Source: Owenia fusiformis
Taxonomy: Eukaryota; Annelida; Polychaeta; Sabellida; Oweniidae
Assembly: GCA_903813345.2 (NCBI GenBank)
Contig: CAIIXF020000012.1
Span: 20,660,184-20,724,183 of the forward strand
Direction: 5' to 3'
Length of the DNA stretch: 64,000 nucleotides
Made by a program: the position numbers and the translations under genes. Below the pieces are notes generated by a model. That model was not told the origin of the DNA, did not search any database, and worked only from the letters and a program-made list of their open reading frames with translations. Shown piece by piece: positions 3,085-45,400 of this stretch (position 1 is the first letter of the stretch; every line of letters starts with the position of its first letter).

Positions 3085-3408
3085 CTTGATGCACTCATCC
3101 TTTATTAGGTGTCTTCATCCACCCAATATATGATTTGTGTCATGTCACATTTGAAACTGTTCATTAGTTCTTGTTTGGCTTCCAGAGCAAATTGTTGAGT
3201 TACTAATCATTTTTTAGGAGTCTTCAGCCTTGCTATCAATTTTAGTGTCATGTCACATTTGAAACTGTTCATTAGTTCTTGTTTGGCTTCCACAGCTAAT
3301 TGTTGAATTACTAATCATTTTTTAGGAGTCTTCAGCCTTGCTATCAATTTTAGTGTCATATCACATTTGAAACTATTCATTAGTTCTTGTTTTGCTTCCA
3401 TAGCAAGT
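3085..3408 (-). repeat. 108-bp x3 tandem repeat across ERAL1 stop and 3' UTR
   Basis: Three consecutive 108-bp units (3301-3408, 3193-3300, 3085-3192). The first in gene order encodes the end of the KH domain (AMEAKQELMNSF...LKTPKK) and the TGA stop. The second repeats the same 36 codons, TGA included, in the same frame and nearly identical in protein sequence. The third keeps the frame for about half its length, then diverges and ends at TAA TAA beside the poly(A) signal. Confidence 0.85.
3101..3106 (-). promoter_or_regulatory. ERAL1: Poly(A) signal of ERAL1
   Basis: AATAAA on the minus strand, about 210 nt past the stop codon and inside the last, most diverged 108-bp repeat unit. It is the first canonical hexamer noticed downstream of the stop, so mRNA cleavage is expected near 3075-3090. 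Confidence 0.55.
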
Positions 3409-3446
3409 TTTTGAATCATCCGGCCTGCCTTACCCACAACAAATGA
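3315..3446 (-). CDS. ERAL1: ERAL1 terminal coding exon: KH domain end
   Basis: Acceptor TTTTCAG precedes SFVVGKAGRM; 43 residues then TGA. GKAG is the GxxG loop of the Era-type KH domain that contacts rRNA, followed by the helix IQKLAMEAKQELMNSF and the strand KCDMTLKLIARLK. The family ends shortly after this strand, so this stop is at the expected place even though 36 in-frame codons of near-duplicate sequence follow it. Confidence 0.93.
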   Translation of the reverse strand, partial: SFVVGKAGRMIQKLAMEAKQELMNSFKCDMTLKLIARLKTPKK

Positions 3447-6400
3447 CTGAAAATACAAAAATACACTTTTAATCTTTTCACTTTGTAAAAGGATCCTTTA
3501 ATTGTGTTATTAAAAAAGTTTTAAAATTATAAAATTGCTGCACAAGTGCACTATGTAGACTATGTGCCACTAATTTAAAAACATTTGCTATTAAATATTT
3601 AGAACTAGTATATAGTTCAAAGGACTGGTATATGTGTGATTTAAATGAAAAATAAAAATCTATTGGAGGTGGCATATCATGTCAAGTCTGTTGAAAATGA
3701 ATATTTATTCCATAGTTAGCATAATATTCATAGGATAACATGTGGAAATAAAAATGGTATTTTTGTAATCAGTGGTAAAATATGATATTTTTGACAAATT
3801 TTCACTTAACCATAGCATACGGTTTTTTAGCCATGACATACGGCGCCGTATGCGATGGTTTATGGATTTTTGCTACTTCAGACTCAAAACGAGGCTAGGT
3901 ATCAACATCGCCGGATCGTTTGGAAAATTCGAATTAAATCACTTAATTTCCGACGATTCTGATAATGACTTTAACTATGGAATAAAAAGAACATCCTATG
4001 ATTTACTCGTGATATGATTTTAATCCACTCATGGATATTGATATCTGCACTCTCTCGCTACGCTCGTTCGTGCAGATATCATATCCATTCGTGGATAAAA
4101 ATCATATCACTCATAAATCATAGGATATCCTCTATGAATTCGATGGCTGAACTGTTACACTGAAAATGGTGAAAGTCATAACTAACCAGTGAGCTTGTAA
4201 AAGTTGGAGAGAGTGATGACTCACTACATGACGTTGCTTGTAACAGTTGGTGAGAGGCATGACTTACCACATGAAGTTGCTTGTAAAAGTTGGTGAGAGT
4301 CATGACTTACCACATGACTTTGCTTGCAACAGTTGGTGAGAGTCATGACTTACTACATGACGTTGTTTGTAAAAGTTGGTTAAAGTCATGACTTACCACA
4401 TGATGTTGCCTGTAACAGTTGGTGAGGGCCATGACGTACTACATGACATTGTTTGTAAATGTTGGTTAGAGTCATGACTTACCACATGATGTTGCCTGTA
4501 ACAGTTGGTGAGGGCCATGACGTACTACATGACATTGTTTGTAAAAGTTGGTTAGAGTCATGACTTACCACATGATGTTGCCTGTAACAGTTGGTGAGGG
4601 CCATGACGTACTACATGACATTGTTTGTAAATGTTGGTTAGAGTCATGACTTACCACATGATGTTGCCTGTAACAGTTGGTGAGGGCCATGACGTACTAC
4701 ATGACATTGTTTGTAAAAGTTGGTTAGAGTCATGACTTACCACATGATGTTGCCTGTAACAGTTGGTGAGAGTCATGACTTACCACATGACGTTGCTTGT
4801 AAAAGTTGGTGAGAGTCATGACTTACCACATGACGTTGCTTGTAAAAGTTGGTTAGAGTCATGACTTACCACATGACGTTGCTTGTAACAGTTGATATTC
4901 ATGATGGCTCTTAGCAACCCCTCTTCCATCTCCCACATCACTATCTCCTAAAGAAGAAATACCATATTCATTCAATGATACAATTATTGCTTAATCATGA
5001 TAACACATTTTCTAAAATACAACTACTTTGGTACAAGAAATATCTACATGTTCGACACTAAAATTGCTCAAAATCATATCTATGTTTAAGTGTTAAAATC
5101 CTCATTTTCTCAGAAATTGAGTCTCAACAAGTAGGTTCATGTGGGATAGTATTGGTAGAGTCCATTTTCAATAGTAAGAATAGGACATTGGGGTTCCTTT
5201 TAGAACTTTTTGTTGGGATTGTCCTGTTCCAAGACCAAAGTCATAAGGAGAGGCTGGACAGTATCAGGGAACTGTGACATCCCTAATATATAAAGTATCA
5301 ACAAAATTGATCTACTACTCTTCCAGTTATCGTAAGATGGCCACCTTCTAGACATATTTTTATAGGTCATTGTACTGTCAACAAAATTACTCTACTACTT
5401 TATATATGCATATCAAAGATATAAACAATATGAGACAAGACAGATAAGATGAACAAATGGACAAAAGAATGGCTTCTTTTATACTAGTTCTGGCCACATT
5501 ATACTGACCACATCTATACTGTAGGGTATCTCCTCTGGCAGATGGTCCATACATTTCTCCCAGACACACATCTTAGCTATTTCTGCAGGGTTTTGATCTG
5601 TCACCATTGAACTGTGGTAATGCCAGTTTCCTGGTGTAGCCACATTAAACATAAAATCCTGTAAAAGAATAAACAGTCTTTAATATAATGTATATGTACA
5701 AGAATAGGTAAAACATCGACTCCCACCAAACATAACATAGTTTATCAACTCACTCGTCATTTTGAACAAAACATGATAGAAAAAAACATGCTGATTGAAT
5801 TTACCAGCCATTTTGAGATTTCCGATGTCCCTAAGGCATCAGCATAATAAAATTTGAACCAAATCTTTTAATTGGTACAAGGTTGACCGTTTGGTATTTG
5901 GGTTATTTTTTCAAAAAATATGGTGGCCAGAGGTCATTTGCCCATAAGGCATAAGCCTATAAAATTTGAACCCAAACTGAACACCAGAATGAATTAACAG
6001 ATGGATGGACGACTCCTCTATATTCCTCCTGAACTTTGTTTGGCAGGATAATTAACACTATCAGTTATCACACGTTTCAGCATGTGATACGGGAAATATT
6101 CCACGAAAGGTAACACTGTATCATCCACGAAAGCGAAGCTTGAGTGGTGATACATCGTTACCCGAGTGGAATATTTCCTGTATCACATAAGCTGAAACGT
6201 GTGATGACGATTTTATCACATGTCAAGGAATTTTGAAGCATTTTGATTTGGTCAATTCAGTTATGATTGTGTTCAGTACCCTGTACTCCTGGTAACTATT
6301 ATAACTTTTGATTTCGCTTTGAAACAATATGACGTCATACCATTGTATTCGTACTTGTTTGTGAATCAGTATGACGTCATATTGTTTTCCTTAGCTAGCA

Positions 6401-9400
6401 GTGATATAATCAGTGACGTCACATCGTTGCTATTGACTAGTGATACAGCCCACCGTATCACATGAAAATCAGTCATGTGTCGTGTGATACGGAATATACA
6501 TCATCACAATTGACCAATCAAAATGCTTAGACACTCCTAATCATGTGATAAACACATATCTCAATTATTTCTGGCTGCATTAACACAGGCTGGTATCGAA
6601 AAATTTGTCCGCTGTGACGGAGCGTGCTATTTTGCATAGAATCTCTAGGAAATCCACACAATTTATTTTTTTACTCATATGTTTTACTATATCAAAGAAA
6701 ATTACTGACTCCATGCAATGGATATATCATTTGCGGGTAACTTTAAATTCTGTTTGGAGTCCAACAACGTTATGAGTAAAAGCTATTGAAAACGGCGTCG
6801 GAGTATCATACTCCAAAATGTACCATTTCTTTTATTTCTTTTTAATGGTACAATATAGCGACACGATAATATTTACATATGTTTTCAGCATAACTCTGAA
6901 GGTATTAATGAGATCTTTATGTATTGGGTATTTTTAATTTTTTTGATAAAAAATAATAATTAATTTTTTTGTCCGCTGTGACGGAGCAGTTTCAAATCTG
7001 AAATGCGTTAAGAATTTAGATTCATAATATATTTCTTTAGAGGAGCGAGCGTGTCAAATCTCTTTCGTAAAGTATTCTGAAAAATGAAACGTAATAAAAG
7101 TACACAATTCAAATTCTGAGATGTATATACGACCACTCTTTAAGCTTCTTTTCTCAGTTTGTACTGCAATCCAACTTATGATTGGTAACTCATGAAAATG
7201 ATAGTCAACTTCCATTTCAGTAAAGGGTATTTGCCTTTCGTAGTGCCCTTTGTGGATCCATCGGCCTGTCATTTTTTACGGTAACTTCATTATTTAAAGT
7301 AAAATGATTTGCTGAAGATGAAGCTAAATACATATAATGGTATGGACTGTGAATTGTTCTACCCTCTTTATTCGTTCCAAAAGGTAAGTTGAATGTATCT
7401 TGAAATACGAAAATGCAAAATTTGATTTTAAGATCGTTCTTTATTTGACTAAGAGTTATGGCTATCTGATGCAACTACAGTAAAATATGTGTACAGTGAA
7501 CACATATGGAGCCCAAAAATGTGTTCCCAGTTGGTATAGATGTTCACTCCATAGAGGCAATTTCATACAGAAGTCAGAGGAATATTTGATAAGAAGAGGT
7601 GGTCACTAGAGAAAGATATTCATTGATACAGGTTTTACAGTGCAGCACGTTTACAAAGACTTTTTTTTTATAATTTTAGTCTATGCAAAACGATGAATTT
7701 CATGAATTTCAAATAATTGCAAATTAAATCTGTATTGGGATCATCTTATATACAGTAATATAATATTATGTGGTAAAAGGTTATACATCTGTCGGCATGC
7801 ATGATGTCTGTGCGCTATTTCGAATAAGTAAATTCATATTAGCCCTATTTACACTACACGTGACATTTCAAGACGTCTAGGCGAAAACGTATTAGAAATA
7901 TTATGTTGAGTTTACATCATGTTGATTTCAGTACAAACCTCCGAAAAATACTAAGAGTGGTCGTTTTTATATCTCAGATTTACATTACCCCATATCTCCA
8001 AGAGGCTGCTCATCATTATTTAGGAAAGTGATTTGTGACGTTCTCTCTTCTAAGGGTACTTTTAAAAGATATAATTTGAATCTTAAATTCTTAACGTAGT
8101 TCACAGTTAAAACTGTAAACATTATTTTTTGTAAAAAATATCAAAAATACCCAATACATCAAGATATCATTAATACCTTCAGAGTTATGCTGAAAACATA
8201 TGTAAATATTATCGTGTCACTATATTGTACCATTAAAAAGAAATAAAACAAATGGTACATTTTGGAGTATGATACCCTGGCGCCGTTTTCAATAGCTTTT
8301 ACTCTTAGCGTTGTTGGACTTCAAACAAAAGTTAAAATTACCCGCAAATGATATACCCATTGCATGGAGTAAGAAATTTTCTTTGGTATAGCGAAACATA
8401 TGAGTAAAAAATAAATTGTGTTGGTTTCTTAGTGTTTCTATGCAAAATAGCACGCTCCGTCACAGCGGACAAATTTTTCGATACCAGCCTGTGATTAAAT
8501 ATTCAGATATACAGGGTGATCATTAAGTTCTGGGAATCGGTCTGCCATTTCAAGATTTCTCAACTATTTAAGTTTAAATTTTCAGCAGGTGTACATTGTA
8601 TAAATCTGAATTGACAGACAAGGTTTCATATACATATGGCTTCTACAGTTTATTTTATTGTAATTATAAAAAAAAGTAAAAGTGGTCCGCGGGTCAGAAA
8701 ATTTTGACTGATGTTAATCTGAAAATGTCCTACTAACTAAAACATATTCATCTTGCCTAGATAGTTGCATCAAACTACTTGTACTGGAGGCAGACAAGTA
8801 CTCTTGAAATCATTTATTCAAAAGTATTCTTCAGTGCTGAGAAGATAATATCTTATAATGGTTTCTATTAGCCTGGACGCACATGCATTGTTGACAAACC
8901 TTGTCCATAAAGACGTTTTACAGTCCTCCCTTTGGTAGCTCTTGAAGATTTGCCCAAGGCTTTGAAATCAGTCCCTTATCAGAATCACACCTATGGCCTC
9001 TCATATGATGCTCCCATACCCCAAATGTAGTGAAGCCTTATGGTGCTTCATCTGGCGAATAGTATATGGTGAATTTGGGGCATAAACAACTTGTGCGAAC
9101 CCTAATTCTTCAAGAATAGTATGACTTTTTTGAGGAGTGGGAAGGAGCAAAGTCATAATGGAAGATAAACTTCCCGCTATTTGGAGTCATGATTGTGACT
9201 TTGAGAGTATAACGAATAATAATAAAATAGAGCAAAGTTCACTCTAATATTACAATACAGATGTTACTTTAGAAACTAAAGTCAGAAATATTTGAAAACA
9301 TAAAAAATCACAGAAATATGTCCACCAAATTTAACCATACTTTTGGATCAAGTAAAATAAAAATGAATTCAAATTTTGCTTGACTCGCTATGCCATTTTA

Positions 9401-12400
9401 TATTTGTCACGTTGCTATAGTAACAATAATAATCCATTGTGACATCATATGACAATGAGACTGTTTTATTCAACCCAAAATTACATTCCTCATTTACCAT
9501 AAAAGGTCCATGTGCAGTATGGCAAGTGCTTTTAGATAGTTATATCTTCAACCATGAGTACTTTCTGGGCATAAATACAGTGGTTTTTATTAAAACAATA
9601 TGTTTTCTTTCAAGTGAAGTACCCATAAGGATAAAATTATCAATCAAACAATTCGATAAATTATTAATAGGGAACCCAGTCAACATTTTTTTTCAAAATG
9701 TTGAACCTATTTACTCAAAAGAGGATCATTTTCTGGTTCTTAATCTTATTGCATGAAAAGATTATTCAGCAAGGGTCTAAAACTTCTTCAAAAAAAGAAT
9801 GGTATTGAAAGTCTTGTTTTGAAGATATCAATTTTCGATGACCAAAATTATGCTGAAAACGATGGATAGCATGAGTTTTCCCTATTGGAAAATAACATGG
9901 GATATGTGGTTTTTAACTTTAACGCATTTCAATACACATCCCCTTTTCAGAAATTGTTAATAGAGTGTAGAAGAAACTTTCGATATGTTCAAATTGAGAA
10001 AAACAAGATCCTCTTTTTAGAAAATGAGCCTACCATTTTTAAAATAGTGCCAATGTGTGGTCCTAATCCATAATTTTTCAGAGAGTTGGATTGATATTTT
10101 ACTAGCATGGGAACTTCACTTGAAAGAAAATATATTGTTTAAATAAAAAAAACACTGTATTGATGGCCAGAAAAGTACCCATGGTGAAAGATATGACTGT
10201 CTAAAATCACTTGCCATACTGCACATGGACCTTTCAAGTGAATTTGTTGAAATAAATGAAATGACAGATAACAAATTCTAGAACTTAGTGATCACCTAGC
10301 CTTGCCCAAGTCGGTATTTTTTAATTATCTGATCTTGAATTATTACCGCCTTGTACAATCCAATGCATCATCAGGGGTATCGCAAAACCGTATTGATTGA
10401 CAGATCGCATGGACACGACGTGTGACTTCAGGCTGATTGACCAATGATGAGCATAATAATGAGCTAACGCTGCAGGGCCGTCGTTGATTGGTCAAATTTA
10501 CCGACATAAACATTGAGTCGGTTAAGCACGTGGCTTTCTCATTGGTACAAGGCAGTCATAATAGAAATCAAGATAAGTAAAACAGACCAACTTGGGCAAG
10601 GCTAGTGATCACCCTGTTTGATATATTATTAGTCATTGAAAAACAAACTAACCCTCAGCTCATCAACCCCCTCTCCTGTAGTTGAAGACACAATGAACAC
10701 TTTCTCAAACGTTCCCCAACCTCTTTTGTTCTTGATCAAATTATTGATTTCAGATTGTTTATTATGTTCTGTTATCCAATTAGAGTTCATCTCTTTGGAA
10801 ATTACTGCATTTCTAATCAATTTACGCTCCTCTTTGAAGCCTTTGGCACTTTGAGATTGCTCCAGAAATGGTCTTGTAGGATCATATTTTTTACTTTTGG
10901 GTAGTGGTTTGAAAGTTTGCTTATGTGAGGCTGTCTTTATTGACTGGTTGGTTTTGTTGTCATTTTGCAAGTTCCCTCTAAAGTCCATGTCATTTCTTGT
11001 GTTAACTTCATTTTGAGTTACCTCATCAATCGGTCCATGCAACTCAATTCTTTCATTTTGAGTTACCTCATCAATTGGTCCATGCAACTCAATTCTTTCA
11101 TTTTGAGTTACCTCATCAATTGGTCCATGCAACTCAATTCTTTCATTTTGAGTTACCTCATCAATTGGTCCATGCAACTCAATTCTTTCATTTTGAGTTA
11201 CCTCATCAATCGGTCCATGTAGCTCAATTCTTTCATTTTGAGTTACCTCATCAATCGGTCCATGTAACTCAATTCTTTCATTTTGAGTTACCTCATCAAT
11301 TGGTCCATGCAACTCAATTCTTTCATTTTTACATGTATATCCCATAATATTGACATCAGTCCTTGAAGAATCCTCAGATTCCTTATTCTTCAGATCATTA
11401 TTATTTTTCTGTTTATTTCCACTTTCTAATGATTCAAGCTCATGTTTTAAATCTTTAATGAATTTATATGGGTCCTCCTTTGATTTGTGCTTCAGTTCTG
11501 ATGGTGTCAGAATGGTGGTGCTGTCTCGATGACCATCTACAACACCCTCTGTTAGCAGTCGTACTATCTCCAAGAGCATGTGTTTAGATTTTAGTATATC
11601 TACCTGTAACCAGAAATAAACAGAAAAACAGAATTTACAGATAGGGAAACCAGTCATTTAGACATTTTTTGAGAGATTCTACAGTCATAATATGAGTATA
11701 TACATTTTGTCAGTTAAAGACAGTTTTTACAGTCATGTATACATTCTTTTTCCAATAAGAGGCAGGTTCTACAGTCATGCATACATGTACTGTAGATTTG
11801 GTTAGTTAGACGCTATTTAATTAGGCGATTTTGCCATTTTTGGCATATTGGTGGCTATTTAATTTGACGGACACTAAGGCTTGGGCATTGCTCTAATTAT
11901 ACACTTAGTCTTACTGGAACAAAATACAAACTGTTATTCCTTCAATTCAACAATTAACTACATAGCAATATATATGAGTATATTGTATATGTATATCTTG
12001 CAATAATCACTGAAGCAATTCCCCGGGAAATGCTCAATTATATCGATGTTCGTTCAGTGTACTTTTATTTCAAAATGTGGCTGAACTGTACAGGTTAAAA
12101 CCCATGTCTAATTTCTCTGCAAATTAGACTGTTTTTAACCAAAATACCAAGCGGTTTGAAGTCTTTTTAGAGCTAAGAAGTTAAGTACAAGCATTTCTTC
12201 AGCTATAAGGACATTGTGTATCATTCTGAAGCAAAACAGGCTGACGATTTCAAACTTTTATTTTTCTGTCAATTTTTGGTGATAAATTTTGTTTGAAACA
12301 AAATGACCTTCCCTGACATTTCCTGGCGATCCTTCTAAACTTGTGGTGAAGATGTTAATTGGTTTTTTTTCCCAAAATTCAAGCAGGCGCTAAATTAACC

Positions 12401-15400
12401 GGAGGTAGGATTAAGTCACTTAAGCCCTGTATACACTATGAATAAATTTTCAATCGTTTCAATTGTTTCAATCCTTTCAATCAGCTCAATCGTTTCAATG
12501 CTTGCATCATTTACTACGTTTCAATGCTTGCATCATTTCGAGCATATCAATTGATTTGCCTTTGAAATGAATGTAAAGTTGAAAGTTTGCGCCTGTTTTG
12601 CCGTTTCAAGCATTTCAGTCTAATGACCAATTCATAAGGAAATGGGCAAACGATTGAAAAGGAAAACGAACATGCACGTTTTTCCTTTCAAGGATTACGC
12701 CGAGCTTTTTCAAACATTTCAATCAATTCAATTGATATGCTGCTTGCGCCTGTTTCGCCGTTTCAAGCATTTCAATCAATTCGCATAAGGTGTTTTTTCA
12801 CATTCTCTTTCATATCAACCATTTCAAGCAATTCGGCCTTTTCATCCCCGTTTCAAGAATTTCACCTGCCAGTGTATACACCCCTTTAGCAGAGTCGCAT
12901 TGAGAAACATGAAAACAAGCTTCAAACTGACCTTGTTTATAATGAGAACTGTTCGTTTATCTGGGTACATATAGAGGGCTCTAAGGATCTCCTTATTCAA
13001 ATGGGTATTTGTCCATTTGTTACTAGCATCTACCAATACACCTACTGTAAAATATAATAATTTATTTGAAAACAAAGTTATTAATTCTGCACAATATGGT
13101 TTGGCAACAACAAAAACCACTGACACTTTGAAACTTGTATTAGAATCATATTAAAACTGTACAAGTTTTACTTTATAGTCTTCATCTGTCCATTTTATGT
13201 TCCATGTGGTCATCTGAGCCAATACACAATAACAAACAAGCAAACAAACAAACAAACAAAAAAACAAATGAATATTTATATTACACATAATACATATATA
13301 TTCCTCTAGCGTAAATAGTATTCAATAAATGTGCCTTAGAAAATTCAATCTTGGACGTAACAACAATTTTCCTCTTTGGTTTGTGTTGTTTCTTTCAATT
13401 AGCTCAGTGTAAGTTATAAACATTACAGATGAGGGTGGGTCCGCTAGGATATTAGAATTTGATGGTGATTTTAGCTCTCAATTACACTATGAATTGAAGC
13501 TAATGTTGCCATGTATTTTTCTACTTAAACAATTTTTTAATTGAGAAATAATATGTTATGCATCCTTTAACAAGAAATCATGATGATTTTAAAGAATGTG
13601 TTTTCTCGCAAGACTCATTGATAATGTTTGTATCTTTGTTATGATGAGCCCTACCAATATCAGCTTCCCCAATAGATGATGCAGGGTCAACGACACACTG
13701 GCGGTCAAGGTTATATCTTTTGCCCTCAGATTTCTTCACAACTCCAGGTGTATCCAAGAGAATCTAAACAAAAAAGGAAATTCCTGTAAATACTAGTAAT
13801 CTAATATAAGCATTGTAGCATTTTTTGAAAACTCTGCACCCACCTGAAAACCCATTTGCAACAACTTTAATATTTTGTCAGTTTTTAATGAAATTGTTTT
13901 AGCCACTAGAAGCACTGTCTGCTTATATATTCTAGATATGTTTGCTTTGTGTTTGTGATAGTGATTGCTTTCTATTAAGTGCCTTTTTGAATACTATTGC
14001 ACAAAACGTCATTGCTATTACTATTGCCATATCCCTATCACATAGCAATAGGGGAACTTATTAATGATCCGAAACAAAATCTTCTGGAACAAATTTTTTT
14101 TTATGAACTCATTTACAGTAGCAAAGTAAATTGTGCTGATGAAAATATAGACCTTTCCTTAATGATAATGATATCAAATCACTAAACGAAGAACAAAAAA
14201 TAGAACTGTGGGTACTGGGCTCACATGGTGTTGCTCAAAAGTGAATGATGGCTAAAGTGAAAGAAAATAAAAAAACGGATATAATTTTTTGCCAATATTT
14301 ACAATGCAGGACACTTGAAATCATTTGTAAAGCTAGGAAATGGGCCAAAGGTGAATTTTGCGAGAAAATAATAGTGGCCATTTTGAAAATAGGCAAGCTT
14401 TTGAAGCAGGAGTCACAGTTTTTTTTCTTTATTGATGTTGAACAAAAAGAATTTAAAACGGGAATCCTATCTACAGAGGATTTAAGAAGAGCCAAGTGTT
14501 GACAGACAGAGGTTTTAAAACTTGCCACTACTTTGGACTGACTGAGAGACAGATGGACAAATCAATTTTAATAGGCTAAGCAAATGGGCTCATAAAAGGC
14601 CCAAACATCCCAAAAATTGCAACAGTTTTTAAATTAGTCTTATATTATGTATTGATATCAGTTGAAAAACATATCAAAAGTATAGAAAAATGTATGCAGT
14701 GGACAAATATGAAATTTCACTTCCTAGGTACCCCCTACAGCCCTACCCCAAAATTGAGTATTGGTAGGAAACAATTTTTTCTTCCCAAATGGAATACTTT
14801 AGTCAAGTATTCAAGCTTTATTATGATAGATAACATATTCACAAATAATTAAAATATTATTTTAATCATTTTTGAGACCAGTAATTGGTCATTTGACCCC
14901 AAAGTATAACAAAATAGGCACAAAACAGGCATGTTATCACATATCTATTTAGATATTTTAGGATCAGTTTGTCAGAAAAACATGAAAAAAATCATGGTGT
15001 TACATATTCATATGAACTTCATATTTGGAGAGTGTCAGAATTCTAACGTGTATACTTAGGAAGAAAAAAATTACTTCATTTTCATCGTTTTGCCCCACCC
15101 ACTATAGGGGAGACTGTAGTTTTTATGACTAACTCCCACAATGCATCACATTTGTGTTAGAGTTGACATCTAAATCGTTTATATAGGCTTGTCATCATCT
15201 AAAATACAAGTTTTGTGAAGGTTTATACCTTATTAGTATGAAAAATAGGAATTATTAGTTGCACTAGGTGAAATGTTAAGGTGACCTCACTTTTATTTGA
15301 TGAATAATTACAAATCACCACTTTGATATTAGGGTATTAGGGTATTTGATAACTGCTATACTAGGCTTATCTAAATAAATAATGTAAGTTGTAGTTTCTG

Positions 15401-18400
15401 TGCAATTTAATATTGTTTAAATTAAAATTATTAATTACAATCCGCAATTACAAAATTTGCATATATTTAAATCCATCAGATAAATAAATCATCACATAGG
15501 AGTACATTACTATGGAACTATCAATTGGATGTATAATGCTGTAGAAACTAATTTATGGTTATTAAACGGAATTTAAACTGATAGAGCACATTTAAATCTC
15601 AGATATCTGGGGAGTCTTTCATTAATATAATTTCAGTGCGTAGGAATGATGGTAATTCTGTCTGTCAGGTTGGAAAACATTGAGTGTGCATGTGCTACAT
15701 TCAGAATCGGATGCAGATATTGTGATTGTGAAAACTGTAATCCAAAGTGTCCAAACCTCAAATACAGTTCTCATACAGATCTCCTTGTGTACACAAACTT
15801 CAACATTTTCCTCAAACCTGAACCAAAAGCAGTAACCCAAGAAACAAAATGTTGGAATATAAATGAAATAAGATTGTCTTTTGTTTATCTTTTCTGGGGT
15901 GTGACACCGCATTCTGGTTATACCTGGCATAGACAAGAAGCTATCATTGAGGCAGATAAAAAAGATAGAGTTCTTGAGAAAACAAGCGGTTGTTTTTAAA
16001 TTACCAAATGGGTCGTTTCGGTAACAAAATGTCTAAACGTCGAAGGTACGATTTTTCTTTTTTCTTTTTTTCACGCGTTATAGGCAGAATCCCCACGATG
16101 TTTTTTCTTACCATCGTGATCGTGTATCAGTATCATATGTTTTAGAAAATGTACATGTTTGCGCAAAAATAGCTCAGAAGACAACAGAATTGTTGATTTA
16201 ATTCCTTATACTAAGTTACATAAACGATTTGGGTCAAAAGTGCAGATCTTAACTGTTTATCGAAATACCGTTTATGTAAATAAAGTGAGGAATTAAATCG
16301 ATGATTCTGTTGTCTTCTGAACTATTTGTTCGCAAATATGTACATTTTTTAAACACATAATACTGATACAATTTTGTGATAACAATGTTGTGGAAATTCT
16401 GCCTACAACGTGTGAAATAAGGAAAAAAGAAAAATCATACCTTCGATGTTCCGACATTTTGTTACAACGTAATTAAGTGGAAACCAGTGAAATGCAAGCA
16501 ACTCTGTCATTGCAGAGGAACATGCTCTTTTGTCAATTTAAGGTGGAAAAACGGTGAAACCCTAACTGAACTTAGGCTTCAAAAATTCTATTAAAAGAGA
16601 ACAGCAAGATCTGAATTATTGCAGCCCCGTGTTCTTCCTCCAATTTCTGATATTTGTGCAAATACCTCCATTACTGATTATGAAAATAATGGTGACTAAA
16701 TAATGAACACTGGCGGATCTGGGGGCCGCGCCCCCCCCCTTGGGTTACCCTTTGCATTCGTTTGACTTCACTCCTTAAAAGAGAGCTTCGTCTTCGTCTG
16801 TAGTTTAACTAGACTCTGCACGCAGGGTACCCTTGGGTGGGCCCAGAAAAAAATAGGGCCTGAAAAAGGCCTTAAGGCCCCGAAAAGTGGGCCTTTTTGG
16901 TCATTAGTGGGCCTTTTAAGGCCTTATTTTTTAATTACAGGCCACATTTGAAGATAATGGGCCTCAATGTTTCAAAATTTAGGGTTTTAGGGGCCCAAAT
17001 TTTTTTTCCCGCGCAAGCCCAGATGTTTTTTTCTCAGACCTGAAATTTGCCCCCCCCTTGTTGGTTCCCAGATCCACCCTTAATGAAGTTTGGTGATAGA
17101 CAAGTTTGTAACTGATTGTTGCCATATATGACGGTTAAGATTACAAAATTAAGGCAGCTTTTTGACAATGAACATAACGTAATCGAACCATGCCCTGTAT
17201 AAAGACCCCGATAAAGACCAGGGATTTACTTTGTGTTACACTAGTTAACTCAGTAGGATTTATTAACGTAGAAACCTTTTCCTCATTAATTATTGAATTT
17301 CATCTTGAAATCCAATTCTTCAGTTGAACTTCTTCATTTCATTTCTCAATATCACTGTGTGGTTAAGAACACCTTAGTCAAAAGTAACAATTTTTCCTTA
17401 ATACAGGGCGAGCCAAAAAGGTAACCCAAACAAATCTTAATAACTCAGTCCAGTCATCCTGCATGAGTTGAGTCTTGGTCAATGTATTATCAATCTACCC
17501 AATCTCAGTGGTCTATCTCTAGTGGTCACGATTTTATGGCCATTTTATACCATGCCATGAAATATGGGTGTCATGCCTGGAGGCCAACTTGAACGTATCG
17601 TGCGTAGTTGTTCAAATCAAGAGCATAAAAATTTTGTGTTATGGCTCTCATCTTCATTCTTATCTCTTGTTTTAATGTTTCAAGTGTTGCTAGTATAGAA
17701 GAAAGGTCCACAGATAAAAAAAACTTGACTTGGCATTGATGTCCAGTCAGTTAGGCACATTTCGATATTTTGAGCACAGTTTGTAAATGGCCATAAAATC
17801 GTGACTATTAAGGATAGATCAATGACACTAAGCAGAATGAAAGAACATTGAACAAGGTAATTGTGCCAAATATGATGTCAAACCCATGCTGAATGACTGG
17901 GTTATTAACAAACATTTGGTTGGGTTACCTTTTTTGGCTCATACTGTATTAATAAACTGATGACAGGGACAGGGATATTTAACATTTTGTTGCCTTTTCA
18001 AGGATATTTTTAGACCACTGATTCTACTTAATTTCTAACAAATCGTTCTCTGTTCTACCAGAAAAGGTATATTATATATCAAATTGAATTTAAAGGGAAA
18101 AACATTTGATAATTTAGCAGTTATCAACTAAAAGTAGGGCTTCCCCTATATTTCACCTGGCATTTGCTGTTTTTTTTTACTTTTTTTACACAATTCTTTC
18201 CTGAAAACATCAAAAAACTGATTTCAGGACAAAATAAGCCTTTACAAATAATTTAGTTGTGCTATTGAGTTCAAATATGACATATCTTTGAAGTAATTAA
18301 TCAAAAGTAAGGTCACCCCAAAAGTGGGTGTGGTAAAATATTGAAATTTCAAATATTATTTTCACCCTTAATATTCACTTAATGACCCTGATACTTATCA

Positions 18401-21400
18401 AATACAATGGTCAGGTGTACAATAACCTCCTTGATTTTTTTCATGCAATTCAGATAAATTGATACAGAAATAGATACATTGTTAAATTAAATACGGGCTA
18501 TTTGATGGCCTATTTTCGGATAATTGGGGCTAGAAATGCCAATTTTTGCACTCAAATAGTTGGTTAACAATTTTTAGTTGCTCTTATGTCAGTAAACTAT
18601 CATAATATTACTCGTTTAGTTGACAAGAGCATTCTATTTTGAAATAAAAAAATATTTACAATCCCATACTCAAATTTGGAGGGGGGTACCTAGAATGTGA
18701 CATTTCACATTTGTCCACTGCATATATTTTTCTATATTTTTGATATGTTTTTCAACTGGTATCAATATACAATATAAGCCTAATTTAAAAACTGTTGCAA
18801 TTTTTGGGATGTTAAACTTCCATTTGCCTAGCCTATAAGTAAAATGGCTGAAAATAAAAAAACGGATTTAATTTTGCCAATTATTATGTAACAAAACTAT
18901 TTCATACAACTACTCTCTACAGCGACATGGCTTTTTACAATGCATATATCTTTTATTGACTTTGAAACATGTCAGTTTCTCCGACATACACCCCCAAAAT
19001 GCAATCTGATTTTCGACGCCGTTTCGGTGCCGTTTCGGTGCCGTTTCGGCACCAAATGGACTAACTAGTCCGGTAGCAAATTTTGGTGTCGAAAGGTTTC
19101 GGTGCCGGAAGGGTGTCGAAACAGTGCCGGAACGGTGCCGAATTGTTTCGATGGCGAAACGGCGTCGAATTATATTGGCTGTGTATGGGTCACTATACAG
19201 TATTTTACATGTTTTTTTGTCTACAGTATATAATACAGTCATCAGTTATATGTAAAATTATGAAAATAGTTACACCAAATATGTTATTAACATAATGGTA
19301 CCATAGACTTACAAAAATTGCTACATATTATGGTACAAAATAGATGGATGTTAAACACAGGAAAATACAATAGGCTTACATACATACTATGCTACAAACT
19401 AGTTAAATGTCCTTATTTTGTCACAGTCTTAGAGGAATCTGGCAAGATCTTTTAGAATTGTAATTTTGCTGTTCATCATTTCTTTTATTAAAATGTTGGG
19501 GGGTACATTACTGATTTAGATTTCTTGGGCTAGTGTTTTGAAAAATATTGATCTTTGGCTTGAATAGGCAGGGCAGTAAAAAAAAATTAAATGCAATTCC
19601 AATTCATCTTCAATTTGGTTCATGTTACTTGCATGTACGCAGATGACACGTTTATCTCCCTAGATGGAACTCCCTCTTCCATGAGACAATGTATGCATAT
19701 TTTTGATATTTTTCATGAAACATCAGGGTTAAAACTTAATAAAGAAAAAACATCAGCAATATGGTTAAGAAGTAAACACAACTCAAAAAAATTTTGTGAA
19801 GACATTCCACTCATATGGGAATCTAAGTTTAGGTTACTCAGGTTAAATATAACATCAGATCTTCGAAATATTTAATCCATTAATTTTAAAAACAAAATTC
19901 AGGAAATGCAAACTGTAATAAGTAGATATAAAAAAAGAAACTTGTCTATACTAGGAAAGATAACAGTTCTTAAATCCTTTGTTTTGCCTTAAGTAGTACA
20001 TTTATTTCTAGTCTTGCCCTAATTGTCGTGTGTAAATCATAAGAGAATAAAACAACTGTTTACTTCATTTATATGGAATTCTGCAGTAGCAAAAGTAAGC
20101 TTCTCACAATTAGTTCAAAATGTTGAAGTTGGAGGTTTGAGATTGTTTGAACCAACGCTGTTTGAACAATCCCTCAAACTTACATGGATCCAAAAACTTC
20201 TTAGAGATGGCTCTTGGCAAGAAACTGCCTTAAAAATTATCAATGTATAATCAAGAAATGAGCTTTTTAGGTATGATTCAAAATCACTTCAAAAATTGAG
20301 GAAAAAATTAAAAATAATTTTTGGAGAGATTTTGTTCATTTTCTACGAATTTACACAGAAAAGAAAGAAAAAGAAGCCGAACATAATACTCAAATGAGAG
20401 CTCAACAAGCCATGTGTACTACATTGGGGGGGGGGGGGGGGGGGAAATGTTCAATATATATTACAAAATACAAAGGTTAACAATGAAGTGATTGTACTAC
20501 AAGATGTATTTCAAAATTCAAAAAGACTTCTAACACTATTAGAATTCAATGACAAATTCCACACTAATATTAAAAACACTATTCCAAAATCTTGGCTAAG
20601 AGATGTCATGGATAATAATCAGAATATCACTGATTATGAAAGAAACAAAGCACATATCAAAGCGTTTCTTACTCAGTCAAAGATATGTAAATATAAATTG
20701 GGAATTTGTTCAGAACCAAGAAAAGAATTCAAAATATATAGAAGGATGGAATAAAGATCTAAATTTGTCACTCAATCAAAATGATAGGAAGGAGATAAAT
20801 AGATTTAACAAACTGAGTAACTATGAACCAAAGTTATCATCTTTCACTTACAAAGTCCTTCATACTTTTTAGCAACTAATACATACTTAAAAATGTGTGA
20901 ACTCATGTGTGGTCAAACAATTGCATTTTTTGTAAAGCAAATCCTGAAACGATTTTCCATCTTCTGTATGTATGTACTATTGTAAGTGCTTTATTAGATG
21001 ACATTAAACAATGGCTCCCTTTAGAGCTCACATTGCTATGTACTAAACAAAATGTATTGATAGGACCTGAGAGTATAAATGAAAAAACAATCATCCTAAA
21101 TAATGTGCTATGTATTTTTAAAAGGTATGTTTATTTTGTGCATATATTCTATGCTAAAACCAACACTTAAAGGTTTTATAAGTAATGTGAAGGAACATTT
21201 TATTATGGACAAACCAGTTGGCAGAGGTGATGAGCGGAAAATCATGGAAGCAAAATTAAACAAATGAAACTGATGATTTTTCCCTTAAATAAAAAAAATT
21301 GCCAAAGGTATAAAATTCTTAAACACTAACATGTAACCAATACTGTATTGTAATTGTTTTTTTGCAATTGCTTTAAAATGTTTTTCTTCTCTGAAATAAA

Positions 21401-24400
21401 AAAAATAAAATAAATAAATTGCAATTCTTTGTGAATAAGGCCTCAATACGTATAGACAAAGAAATCTTTTGGAAAAAGGTCCCTGGATTAAAAACGCAAA
21501 TTCACAAAGCAAAGAAAATTTACAATGGAGTGTCTTGACATTAAATCCTTTTATACAATGTCTCACTTTCAACTAATTGAGCCCCTTTATAGACTTCTAC
21601 CTTAATGAACATCTGAAAGCAATATTTGTTCAACAATGGACAGCAGTGTTTTGTCTTTGAATCTGCAGCCAAGATGTACCAGGAATGGATGGATAATGCT
21701 ATGAAATACAAAGTTCTGGATAATATTAGTAATATGAGAATTTCAAATAAATTGTCATAGTATTAATCCTTATGGAGTGCTGAAGTAATACGGGGAGGAA
21801 AGAGTTTTACAACACAATTGTGACTTCAGTGTCAAGACAGTTGCAGGATATATTTTCATAAAGTCATTCAACAATCTTGTAGCAATTTCATCTCACAAAA
21901 GGAAATCTATTGAAATTATAGCATTTTTATCCTTTCTTCCTGGACACCCTGAATGTACAGTATCTGCTTATATACAAGTATATCCAAGAATTGAGAGGAA
22001 TTCGTAAGCTCTTCAACTTTTTTTCAATCCAATTACTCAATCTGTATTTGAAATATGTAAACCATTGATGTTGTCATGAATAAATACATTTCACAAAAAA
22101 ACTTCCTCACCAATTGTGTGTTACCCTCTGTCAAAACTGCCTTTGTCTTGTTTCTCGTTGTATGAACTTTGGCAGACACTGCTGACACCTGGTGAAAGTA
22201 ATGTAAGAGGTTCATTGAAAACCAATAACATACAGGCGTGTACTGAGGTTCTAGGTACATAACATGTCAGAATACTGTAAGGTGTACCTAGGGATCATAA
22301 CAGATATTTTTGTATCTTTTCTGCTGTAGCCTAGCTCAGTCATACACTGTATCTATCCCTGTCCCGCTCTATAACATGGGGAATATAAAATTTTGGAGGC
22401 TTAGAAGATAAAATGTACCTAGTGTTAGATACAGGGTCTATCCCTCTGGAAATATGTGCATCTCCCTCCCTCCCTTGCAGCAACATATATATGTATTAAT
22501 CATTTAAATTTTGAAGGAAATCCTGGGAAATAATTATTCTTATTCAGTTCACTTCTTGAAACTTGTAAATATACAAACATGAGACTTGTTCTGTCCCGGC
22601 TAAGTTATATTTCATATTTATGTTTTTTAACTTGTTTGCATTTTCATGTTTTTGCCTGAGATATACATACTCTCCATCCCATAAGTTTGTTAGTCAGTGT
22701 TGATTTGCCAGCATTAGGGGCCCCAATGATGGCAACGCTCAGGACTCTTGCATCTGGAGGTTGGTCTGGATGTAGAAGTGCTTGTCTCCACTGTTCATCT
22801 AAATATACAGTACACATGTTATAATAAATGTCACATGTGGGTTTTCCCATATGCATTCTGAGTATTTTATGTGAAGAATAAAAAACATTTGATAAAGCAT
22901 GTAGTATATAGAGGATATTCTATGATTTATGAGTGATATGATTTTTATCCACAAATGGATATGATATCTGCAGGAGTGAGCGTAGCGAGTATGTCATGGC
23001 TTAAAAATCGTATGCTATGGTTAAGTGAAAATTTGTCAAAAATATCATATTTTACCACTGATTACAAAAATACCGTTTTTATTTTGATATGTTATCCTAT
23101 GAATATCATGCTAACTATGGAATAAATGTAGTTATTTAATAGCAAAAATCATAAAATAGCACACATAAAAATGAACAACATTTTCAAAATGGTTGATCAC
23201 TAGCCAAATTGTCATCAGAAAGTGTAACATGCTTCTAAGTAGGCACATATAAAATTTCAAAATTGCACACATACCACACACATATATATGAGAATGGTGG
23301 CCGCCTACTAGCTAAAGTGTCATAAGACAGAGTGCCATGCTTATGAGTATTCACATATCAAAGGATAGGTATAGATATGGGGATCTGAATTAAACAATGT
23401 TTACCATTTATTGAAAACATTCTGTAAAAAACATGGTCCTTTATGTAATGTTGACTGATTGACAACAATTTAATGCGAAAAATATTTAGATATATTTAAT
23501 ATGACTGTTTTTGTTAACATTTTTTAGTGCAATTGTTTTTTGTTCCTTTCTACCAATTCTTGAGAATGAAATAAAATGTCTCTCTGAACCTTGTTGGAAC
23601 AAATAGCATATACAACATTTTCTTAGACCTCTCAATACTATAATTATACAAAGGAAATTTTGGTTGATTTAACAGAAAGTATGCAAAAAATTTAAACAAA
23701 ACCCCCTAAAATAGATAAAAATGAAGATAAACCTTTTATTTCATGAACAAGATACTTTTTTAAAATCAACCAAACTTTCCTTTGTACAATTACAATATTG
23801 AGAGACCTAAACACATTTTGTTATGTCGTTTTGTTCCAATGAGGTTCGGATATATGTTTCATTTCATATACATATGATACCAAGAACAAAATAAGTGTCT
23901 GATGTGTTTTCTTAAACAATATAGAGAAAAGTATATATATATATTTTTCAAATTATAATGTTATCATTCAAAAGACTGGTTTAAAGATTCTCGCAATCTT
24001 TATCCAATCAGCGTTTGCGAGTGTGTCGGCTCACGTATAAAAGGCGAATCCAACTCAAATCCATGCAAGGGTGTATGAGGTACTCGAGGAAAGGGCTCGT
24101 GAAATCTGAATTTATATGCACATGGTCAATGTTTACACATGTTTGGAGTTATTGAAGAAAATGTGATATGGGTGTGGTTCCGAATTTGAAGTCATTGCTG
24201 GAAAATATGATTTTAATACGTGAAATTATATCTATAAATATAGCACTAAAAATAACAGTACACATAAAGTACATGTATGATTGTGTTCAGAAATGTTTGA
24301 AACCCTTACGGAAAATTCTGTCTGCATTTTGTCACCATTGCTCTTTCTCATGTTTCTTCCCGCATTCTAGTGCTGTTTGAATGAATATATTAATTAATGT

Positions 24401-42400: not shown

Positions 42401-45400
42401 ACTACCGTATTTTGAAACATAATCATGCATTCAATTCATTTGTATGTTTTTCATGTTTTAAATTGTCTCATTCTTTAACTAAATAATTTCCACAATATGG
42501 TTGAAAATAGTTGCAACCATTTGGTAAAATGCAACTTTTAAAAACAATCAGTGGTTTGTAATGGTTGAAAATGATTCCATAATTTCAATGATATGCAACC
42601 AAAGTTTTCAACCATATGGTATGCCTGGGTCACATAGCCGCCGGGCGCTGGCCGATGAGTAGTCATCGGCCGATTTCTAAATCGACCGGGCGCTGGTGAC
42701 TTTTCACCGATGTCTTGATCTAATCGTGAGTATGGTCACATTAGATCAGGCATCGTACAGCGCCCGCAATCAATTGAATCTGAAAGACATCGCACGGGTA
42801 TCGCACGGGTATCGCAAGGCTATCTGCCGATGGCCGTACGGCACCCGCCAGGACATCGGTCGATCTACAGGCCTCTAGATTTATACAAAATTCTTGTATG
42901 ACCCGGTATGCCTGTTCCACATGGCGTGAATGCAAGATTTGAAAATGAAATACTTCGATAGACAGGACTTCCAGGATAATAATGTTTCTATGCAATAAAA
43001 ATCAGAAAGATCCTCTTTTGAGTAAATAGGTTCAATATTTAGAAAAAATGCTGACATGGGGTCCCTATTTATAGTTTTTCAAATTGTTTGATTGATATTT
43101 TTACTATATTATGGGTACTTCAATTGAAAGAAAACATATTGTTTTAATAAAAACACTGTATTTATGCCCAGAAAGTACTCATGGTGAAAGATATGACCGT
43201 GTAAAATCACTTGCCATACTGCAGGTGGTCTTTTCATCAAAGTGAACCCTGACCTTAATTCATTTTTAGATCTTTCATATAAACAAATACTATGTCTACC
43301 TGTCCATCCGATGCTATTAGAAAAATTCCATATTTCTGCATCTTTCTTTTGACTGTTCTCGTAAAGAGAATTTGTTTGGTCATAAAATATGGCCTATCTT
43401 CAAAGAAATTGGCGATTTTTCTTCTATTTCAAGTGGAGTACCCTCTTCCCTAGACACATCTAAATCTTCATCATCCACCAGCTCACTAGCATTGTTATTG
43501 TCTTTTTCCACCTGTCTTCCCAAGGCCTTCCTGATATATGGCCCATTGGCCTTATCCCCTCTATCCTTAGCCTTTGGCATATTAACTGTAATTGAGACAG
43601 TGAACTTTCGTATTAAAATTGTGACCCTTGAAAATACTGTTCTCACAAAAACATTCAGAAGGTTTTTAGAATAAATGATTTGTAATGGTATATACATGAG
43701 TGAATATACGCATAGATATGTATCACTCTATATCTATTCATTGTGTATGACAGACATACACGATTAATGTCAATATAAGAAAGACTAGATCAACCCACCC
43801 ACCCAGCCATTCAAATGTGTGTCATTGTTTTACAGTAAGCCTAATCGTTCCATTTATGTTTTATAAAAAATCTCCGACAGTGTGTAGTAATTATAATTCC
43901 TTACCTCATTATTTCTAAAACCTTTATATCACTTTATAAGTAATCATTATTAGATTTATCAAACAAATCAGCACGCAAAATACCATGATGACCGTGCGAT
44001 GCCACCGGGCGCCGTAAGATAATCGTACGATGATCGGAACGGGACACGGCCAGGTAGGTACCGATGAGTTTGGTTGAGAAAAAATCGCCTAGACAATGGC
44101 AACTTTTATCTCCGCGATAAAACTCTGCCGGCGCCCGTACGATGTCTAAAAATCGGCTGATGAGTGGCGATCATCGCCCGGCGCCCGTACGATGCCCGGG
44201 CTCGCCGGCCGATTTTGAACAAAATACTCATCGGCCGGGCGCCGTAGTGAAAATCGGAGCTTATGTGACCAAGGCATTAATGATTGAAAAATTGGTTGGA
44301 AACAATTTCAAATGGTTGCAGTTATGGTTACGCAATGGTTTTTAATGGTTATGCAATGGTTTTTAACGGTTGAAATTCTGAAAAATGGTTGTTTTTTCTA
44401 AGGGAAATCCTAATTTTTGGGCTTGATTATGCCGCATCCCCTGACTGAAAACTGAGATTTTTTGGCGTTCGCACCCCTCTGGCTACACTCCTGGAATATG
44501 AACAAAATTGCTCCAACAATTTTTGAGTTATTGTAAAAAAAAATGTAAAATGACACTACTTCCCAAATTGTCATTAGACAGTGTGCCATTGTTATGAGTA
44601 TTCACATATCAAATATGAACAAAATCGCTCCACTACTTTCCGAGTTGTTGTAAAGAACATAAAATAATACATGTAAAATGGTAGTCTTTTTTAAAATGAA
44701 CTAAGTGTAATTAGACAGTGTGCCATGTTTAAAGTATTCACACATCAAATATAAACTAGAAAAACAGCAATCCACGGAGTAGCAAATCCCACCAAACAAA
44801 ACATATTATGCTTATTATAGCTAGTGTATAGCTTATAGCTTCTTTGCGATAGAAGCATGAAATTTGGCACAAAGTCAGTTTATACCATTATGAACTAGGC
44901 ATCATCATATCAAATTTGAACCAAATCCGTTCACTGGTATATGAATTCTCAAAGATTACGTTTTTTACGAATATGGGCCGCCATCTTGAAATTCAGCCGC
45001 CATCTTGAAAATAGTTTCTTGAACAGAGCTACTGTGTCCCTAGGCATAATCATATAAAATTTCAACCAAATCTGTTCACTGGTATTTGAGTTATCAAAGA
45101 TTACGTTTTTAACAAAAAATTGCCGCCATTTTAAAATTAAGCGGCAATCTTGAAAATGTTTTGTCGAACATAGCTACTGCGTCCCTAAGCATCATCATAT
45201 AAAATTTGAACCAAATCCGTTCACTGGTATTTGAGTTATCAAAGATGACATATTTTTACGAAAAATGGCCGCCATTTTGAAAATAAGCGGCCATCTTGAA
45301 AATCTCTTTTTGTGCGAAACTCCTTTGTCCCTAGGCATCAGCATATTATATTTGAACCAAATCCGTCAACTTGTATTTGAGTAATCAACGATTACATTTT

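Follow-up and report, generated by a model that had tools for sequence, protein, structure and literature searches.

Does a run of copied 5' splice sites at the head of an intron act on the gene that carries it, or is it a by-product that is removed whenever the intron is spliced? This question is raised by the ERAL1 gene of Owenia fusiformis, where a 43-bp minisatellite begins inside the penultimate exon and continues into the last intron. The gene lies in a stretch of 64,000 nucleotides, hereafter the window, whose positions are used throughout, and searches were extended to the whole assembly (498 Mb, 525 contigs).

Gene model and structure of the array

Eight exons were joined into an open frame of 578 amino acids plus stop (Table 1). 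The model starts at an arbitrary first exon edge rather than at a traced 5' end of the gene. The frame carries a MMR_HSR1 match (Pfam, E 5.8e-20) followed by a KH_2 match (Pfam, E 1.9e-4, 21.6 bits, slightly below the cut-off of 22), which is the order of GTPase and KH domains expected of mitochondrial Era. Its top match among solved structures is 'GTPase Era, mitochondrial' (8csp/8csq/9h52, E 7.8e-75), and the alignment to 8csp, the GTPase Era chain of which we take to be human, covers both the GTPase and the KH region. The name ERAL1, given to the gene in a first-pass annotation, is thus confirmed. A search of the assembly with the last 69 residues gave three matches (4 candidates, 4 scored), all at the ERAL1 locus, and no second copy of the locus turned up in the assembly.

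Table 1. Features of the ERAL1 locus and its splice-donor array, in window coordinates.
Feature	Position	Strand	Remarks
ERAL1 gene model, 8 exons	3315-22796	-	first exon edge arbitrary; from joined frame and protein matches
Exons 1-4 of traced model	22796-22671, 22188-22111, 13763-13655, 13044-12932	-	
Exons 5-8 of traced model	11603-10653, 5658-5509, 4947-4870, 3446-3315	-	
Penultimate exon, 78 nt, EIVMWEMEEGLLRAIMNINCYKQRHV	4870-4947	-	region aligned to mitochondrial Era 8csp
True donor of penultimate exon, GTG/GTAAGT	GT at 4869-4868	-	
Last exon	3315-3446	-	VGKAG loop and stop codon; preceded by acceptor TTTTCAG, whose last base is 3447
Unit 1, probable founder	4852-4894	-	25 nt exon (4894-4870) and 18 nt intron
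Units 2-16, full-length intronic copies	4207-4851	-	10 GTAAGT, 4 GTACGT, 1 GTGAGT
Unit 17, degenerate	4169-4206	-	lacks 5 nt; GTTAGT at 4186 resembles a donor
Units 4-7 and 8-11, a pair of identical blocks of 172 bp	4422-4765	-	172/172 identical; probably a recent block duplication in the array

TRF places the array at 4193-4894 with period 43 (16.3 copies, 82% matches, score 977) and at 4195-4894 with period 86 (8.1 copies, 93%, score 1092). Read on the minus strand, it starts 25 nt inside the penultimate exon and otherwise extends into the last intron, and 16 full 43-bp units follow each other without indels, in register from 4894 to 4207. The repeat unit is therefore the end of an ERAL1 exon plus the start of its intron, as first proposed, and its exon half encodes NCYKQRHV, within the region aligned to the KH part of mitochondrial Era. 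About 16 copies had been placed downstream of the true donor; the array and its coordinates stand, but the downstream copies are 15 full units and one degenerate unit rather than 16 full ones. The degenerate unit 17 is identical at 34 of 38 aligned bases, with 5 deleted, and none of 2000 mononucleotide shuffles scored as high. When the assembly was searched with the exon and units 1-16, only the ERAL1 array was returned (1 candidate, 1 scored, very common words being skipped).

Ten distinct sequences are present among the 16 full units. Units 4-5 differ from units 6-7 at a single position (85/86 bp identical), and this, together with the identity of units 4-7 and 8-11, suggests that the array has recently grown by blocks. 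The 172/172 bp identity also makes copy-number variation of the array plausible.

Other repeats are found at the locus. A 45-bp coding minisatellite with about seven in-frame copies of NERIELHGPIDEVTQ (97% matches, 11007-11329, minus strand) lies between the GTPase and KH regions. A 108-bp repeat is present at 3137-3416 (minus strand, 2.6 copies, 94%), in which the last ~100 nt of the coding sequence and the stop recur downstream into the presumed 3' UTR. Together with the array, these two repeats account for 450 of the 1737 coding nucleotides of ERAL1. Directly after the array, at about 3990-4140 (minus strand), there is a long foldback repeat, and a similar stretch is seen by eye near 22920-23130. 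A 221-nt stretch of the foldback beyond the array folds at -90.9 kcal/mol, and the repeat resembles elements of the foldback or MITE type. A dispersed element carrying the array itself was considered and rejected. With the array and its flanks (window 5000-4100) as query, 40 of 690 candidates were scored and 42 matches obtained; one is the ERAL1 locus and the other 41 fall in query positions 851-901, so that with this scoring it is the foldback edge (window 4150-4100) that matches at least 41 other places. As most candidates were unscored, the narrower query of exon and units 1-16 was run as well, with the single-locus result given above.

Predicted donor strength and products of decoy use

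GTAAGT is found in 11 of the 16 full units, the number given in the first-pass annotation, but this count includes the true donor, leaving 10 of the 15 full downstream units. GTACGT replaces it in units 5, 7, 9 and 11, and GTGAGT in unit 16. The description of a ladder of consensus 5' splice sites spaced 43 bp apart is upheld. Over the 19,482-bp gene span, 11 of the 14 minus-strand GTAAGT motifs are concentrated in the 663 bp from 4869 to 4207, true donor included.

Predicted U1 pairing is -8.7 kcal/mol in ten units (the true donor and nine decoys), and weaker in units 13 and 16 (-5.2 and -5.3), unit 17 (-4.8) and units 5, 7, 9 and 11 (-1.1). The true donor of the array is predicted to be the strongest of the seven donors in the traced model, the other six ranging from -2.8 to -8.6 kcal/mol. 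Strength alone cannot single it out, however, because ten units share identical predicted pairing; nine decoys are predicted to be just as strong, which makes some use of them plausible. A hairpin presenting each donor was rejected as a feature: unit 1 is predicted to fold so that its donor occupies the loop above a stem of 6 bp, and 63 of 200 shuffles are as good (z -0.50). Folding of the exon with units 1-16 (741 nt) was also rejected (z -1.11, 2/20 shuffles as good).

Products were computed for donors 2-16, that is, for all 15 full-unit decoys, with the donor of unit 17 left out. Every one of them loses the remainder of the KH domain, including those that add multiples of 129 nt, since an in-frame TGA in unit 2 ends translation for decoys from donor 3 onward and thus truncates even where a multiple of 3 nt is added. 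The predicted proteins continue from RHV with 17 or 19 foreign residues and reach 552 or 554 amino acids, compared with 578. Translation through a retained last intron ends at the same unit-2 TGA. Decoy use had been expected usually to shift the frame before the KH domain. Truncation is predicted in 15/15 cases rather than usually, and the array-bearing intron is inside the domain, not before it: it interrupts the KH_2 match (residues 502-576) immediately before VGKAG, a KH loop of GXXG type.

With donor 2 the stop falls in the last exon, and with donor 3 it falls 32 nt before the last junction. Donors 4-16 (13/15 decoys) place it 75-591 nt before the last junction. Nonsense-mediated decay (NMD) usually acts on stops more than 50-55 nt upstream of the last junction, and by this rule 13/15 decoy transcripts would be NMD targets.

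Decoy acceptors were considered as well. An AG is present at the tested exon-half site in 11 of 16 units (TTACAG, TTACAAG or TTGCAAG), the other five having TTACAAA. The 17 nt upstream of the AG contain 9 pyrimidines in unit 1 and 11-13 in the other ten units, and the seven true acceptors have 10-13. As the decoy AG sites thus resemble true acceptors in pyrimidine count, microexons using them may arise within the array.

Genomic background and precedents

Twenty pieces of 10 kb at round coordinates on 10 contigs, all retained (GC 35%), served as the background sample. Tandem arrays, defined by a period of 10-250 and a copy number of 3 or more, cover 17,408 of the 200,000 sampled bases (8.7%, 40 arrays). 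Two pieces, L013 and L014, hold 9,579 of these bases, and without them coverage is 7,829 of 180,000. In a genome this rich in tandem arrays, some would be expected to cross exon borders. Donor ladders are uncommon, though not confined to ERAL1: tandem rows of period 20 or longer, whatever their copy number, that have at least 3 GTAAGT on one strand were found in 1 of the 20 pieces (L013) and, within the window, only in the ERAL1 array. The ladder in L013 (G000:C2:10000000-10009999) is a 145-bp satellite that occupies ~6 kb of the 10 kb, with 3-6 GTAAGT per array. A period-145-bp array is also present at window 44895-45531.

Within the ERAL1 array, the donor columns (-3 to +6) show no extra conservation (3/9 variable, versus 13/34 elsewhere; Fisher p = 1), although this is a weak test as the units share recent ancestry and are not independent. 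Since the donor columns are as variable as the remaining columns, there is no sign of selection keeping the donors.

Comparable repeats are described in the literature. In amphioxus, mirages are minisatellite-like copies of exon-intron borders, 10-72 bp in Adh3 and 150-160 bp in globins (PMC3087553). The genes concerned are Adh3, the globins BflGb6 and BflGb9, and troponin C, with similar repeats in PGBD5 (PMC3087553, PMC3902484). Many mirage copies retain AG/GT, and one globin has 6 versus 3 units in two haplotypes (PMC3087553). The data presented suggest undisturbed regular splicing (PMC3087553; also PMC3902484), and the authors allow that the copies could act as cryptic sites (PMC3087553). 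The ERAL1 array resembles mirages in that its tandem unit spans an exon-intron boundary, splice signals are found in many but not all copies, and the original boundary is intact. It differs in the gene affected and in its layout, since its 16-17 copies sit at a 5' border and are organised into higher-order repeats of 86 and 172 bp.

The 37-bp repeats of human F7 intron 7 are a second precedent. Splicing there is reported to rely on the most upstream donor alone under normal conditions (PMC6627357, citing Borensztajn et al. 2006); when this donor is mutated at +5, the exon is skipped and cryptic donors further downstream come into use (PMC6627357). In F7 and ERAL1 alike, the true 5' splice site lies inside the first of a series of highly homologous short repeats (37 and 43 bp, respectively), with homologous donors downstream. 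In contrast to the ERAL1 array, represented here by one locus sequence, variable repeat number and tested donor choice are reported for F7 (PMC6627357). A search of PMC3778950 for the F7 repeats led to passages on another gene. Intron gain from tandem duplication also involves tandem copies with splice signals, in that case of coding sequence (PMC4974935); unlike these, the ERAL1 array is within one intron, and no new intron is evident. A scanning model of splice-site choice is cited in PMC2423196. Oriented scanning was reported for mammals and may not hold in the host of this array. Titles and abstract openings returned by a literature search contained no ERAL1 splice array, a statement that applies to those parts of the records only.

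Passenger or control device

The array is most likely a passenger: a new control device is less probable than a harmless tandem repeat. We assign a probability of about 0.8 to a neutral boundary minisatellite whose decoys are by-products and in which donor 1 is used almost always, the array being spliced out as part of the intron. It would have begun when a 43-bp segment spanning the ERAL1 exon-intron border was duplicated in tandem. The exon copy, unit 1, is most simply the founder, because the exonic part of the repeat codes for KH-region sequence that aligns with mitochondrial Era 8csp. Expansion would then have proceeded into the intron, later in 86- and 172-bp blocks, and presumably only intron-ward growth survives, as growth toward the exon would break the protein. 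Donors would have been copied along as by-products of expansion, and the spliceosome would take donor 1 almost always through a 5'-to-3' preference, as reported for the F7 intron-7 repeats. With donor 1 in use, the array would be excised with the intron. Rare decoy use would produce a KH-truncated, mostly NMD-sensitive transcript, at small cost and without a programmed switch.

This passenger reading is consistent with units that start in an exon aligned to mitochondrial Era, with 172/172 bp blocks as left by ordinary turnover, with donor columns that are no more conserved than others, and with the non-productive outcome of all 15 computed decoys. Tandem arrays are common in the genome, and two more repeats in ERAL1 touch exons. 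Amphioxus mirages are reported to splice regularly and F7 to use its most upstream donor (PMC3087553, PMC3902484, PMC6627357). On the other hand, nine decoys equal the true donor in predicted U1 pairing and the amphioxus authors allow cryptic use (PMC3087553), while 5'-to-3' scanning is a mammalian observation and the shared recent ancestry of the units weakens the conservation test.

The first-pass annotation suggested that such arrays could tune ERAL1 output. Some transcripts would then use donors 2-16, leading to NMD or a KH-less protein, with copy number setting the fraction. The nine of 15 decoys that equal the true donor's predicted U1 energy agree with this, as do the 13/15 whose stop lies 75 nt or more before the last junction, far enough for NMD under the 50-55 nt rule. 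However, tuning finds no positive support here and appears unlikely: the donor columns lack excess conservation (a weak test with related units), 4/15 decoys have the weak GTACGT, probably a single change that spread as the blocks were duplicated, all 15 products are KH-truncated, and the published analogues reportedly show regular splicing or use of the first donor (PMC3087553, PMC3902484, PMC6627357). We likewise see little chance that a copy-number-variable ladder would serve as a rheostat of ERAL1, a mitochondrial ribosome-assembly factor, via array-bound U1 or decoy cutting with NMD, unit number differing between individuals.

Very unlikely is a role as a U1 snRNP landing pad, with uncut decoys guarding the last intron from premature polyadenylation or strengthening definition of the 78-nt exon. 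Ten predicted U1 sites of equal strength, true donor included, do stand at the intron head, and the intron contains one AATAAA and three ATTAAA downstream of the array and none in 4869-4160, but A-T-rich sequence often yields such hexamers, and there is no selection signal in what is a weak test. We give very little weight to an assembly error in which the number of exact 172-bp blocks came out too high or too low: identical blocks (units 4-7 = 8-11) are hard to assemble, but miscounting of one unit should not yield 10 distinct sequences among 16 units and a diverged last unit, although the count alone may be off.

As a passenger, the ERAL1 array is one more boundary-spanning minisatellite in a known class. 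Nine downstream donors share the predicted U1 pairing of the true donor, and all 15 computed decoys are predicted to be non-productive, so the locus offers a naturally occurring system for studying how 5' splice sites are chosen. If donor 1 alone is used, a 5'-to-3' preference would be supported in one more organism; otherwise, the array would be a measurable splicing rheostat.
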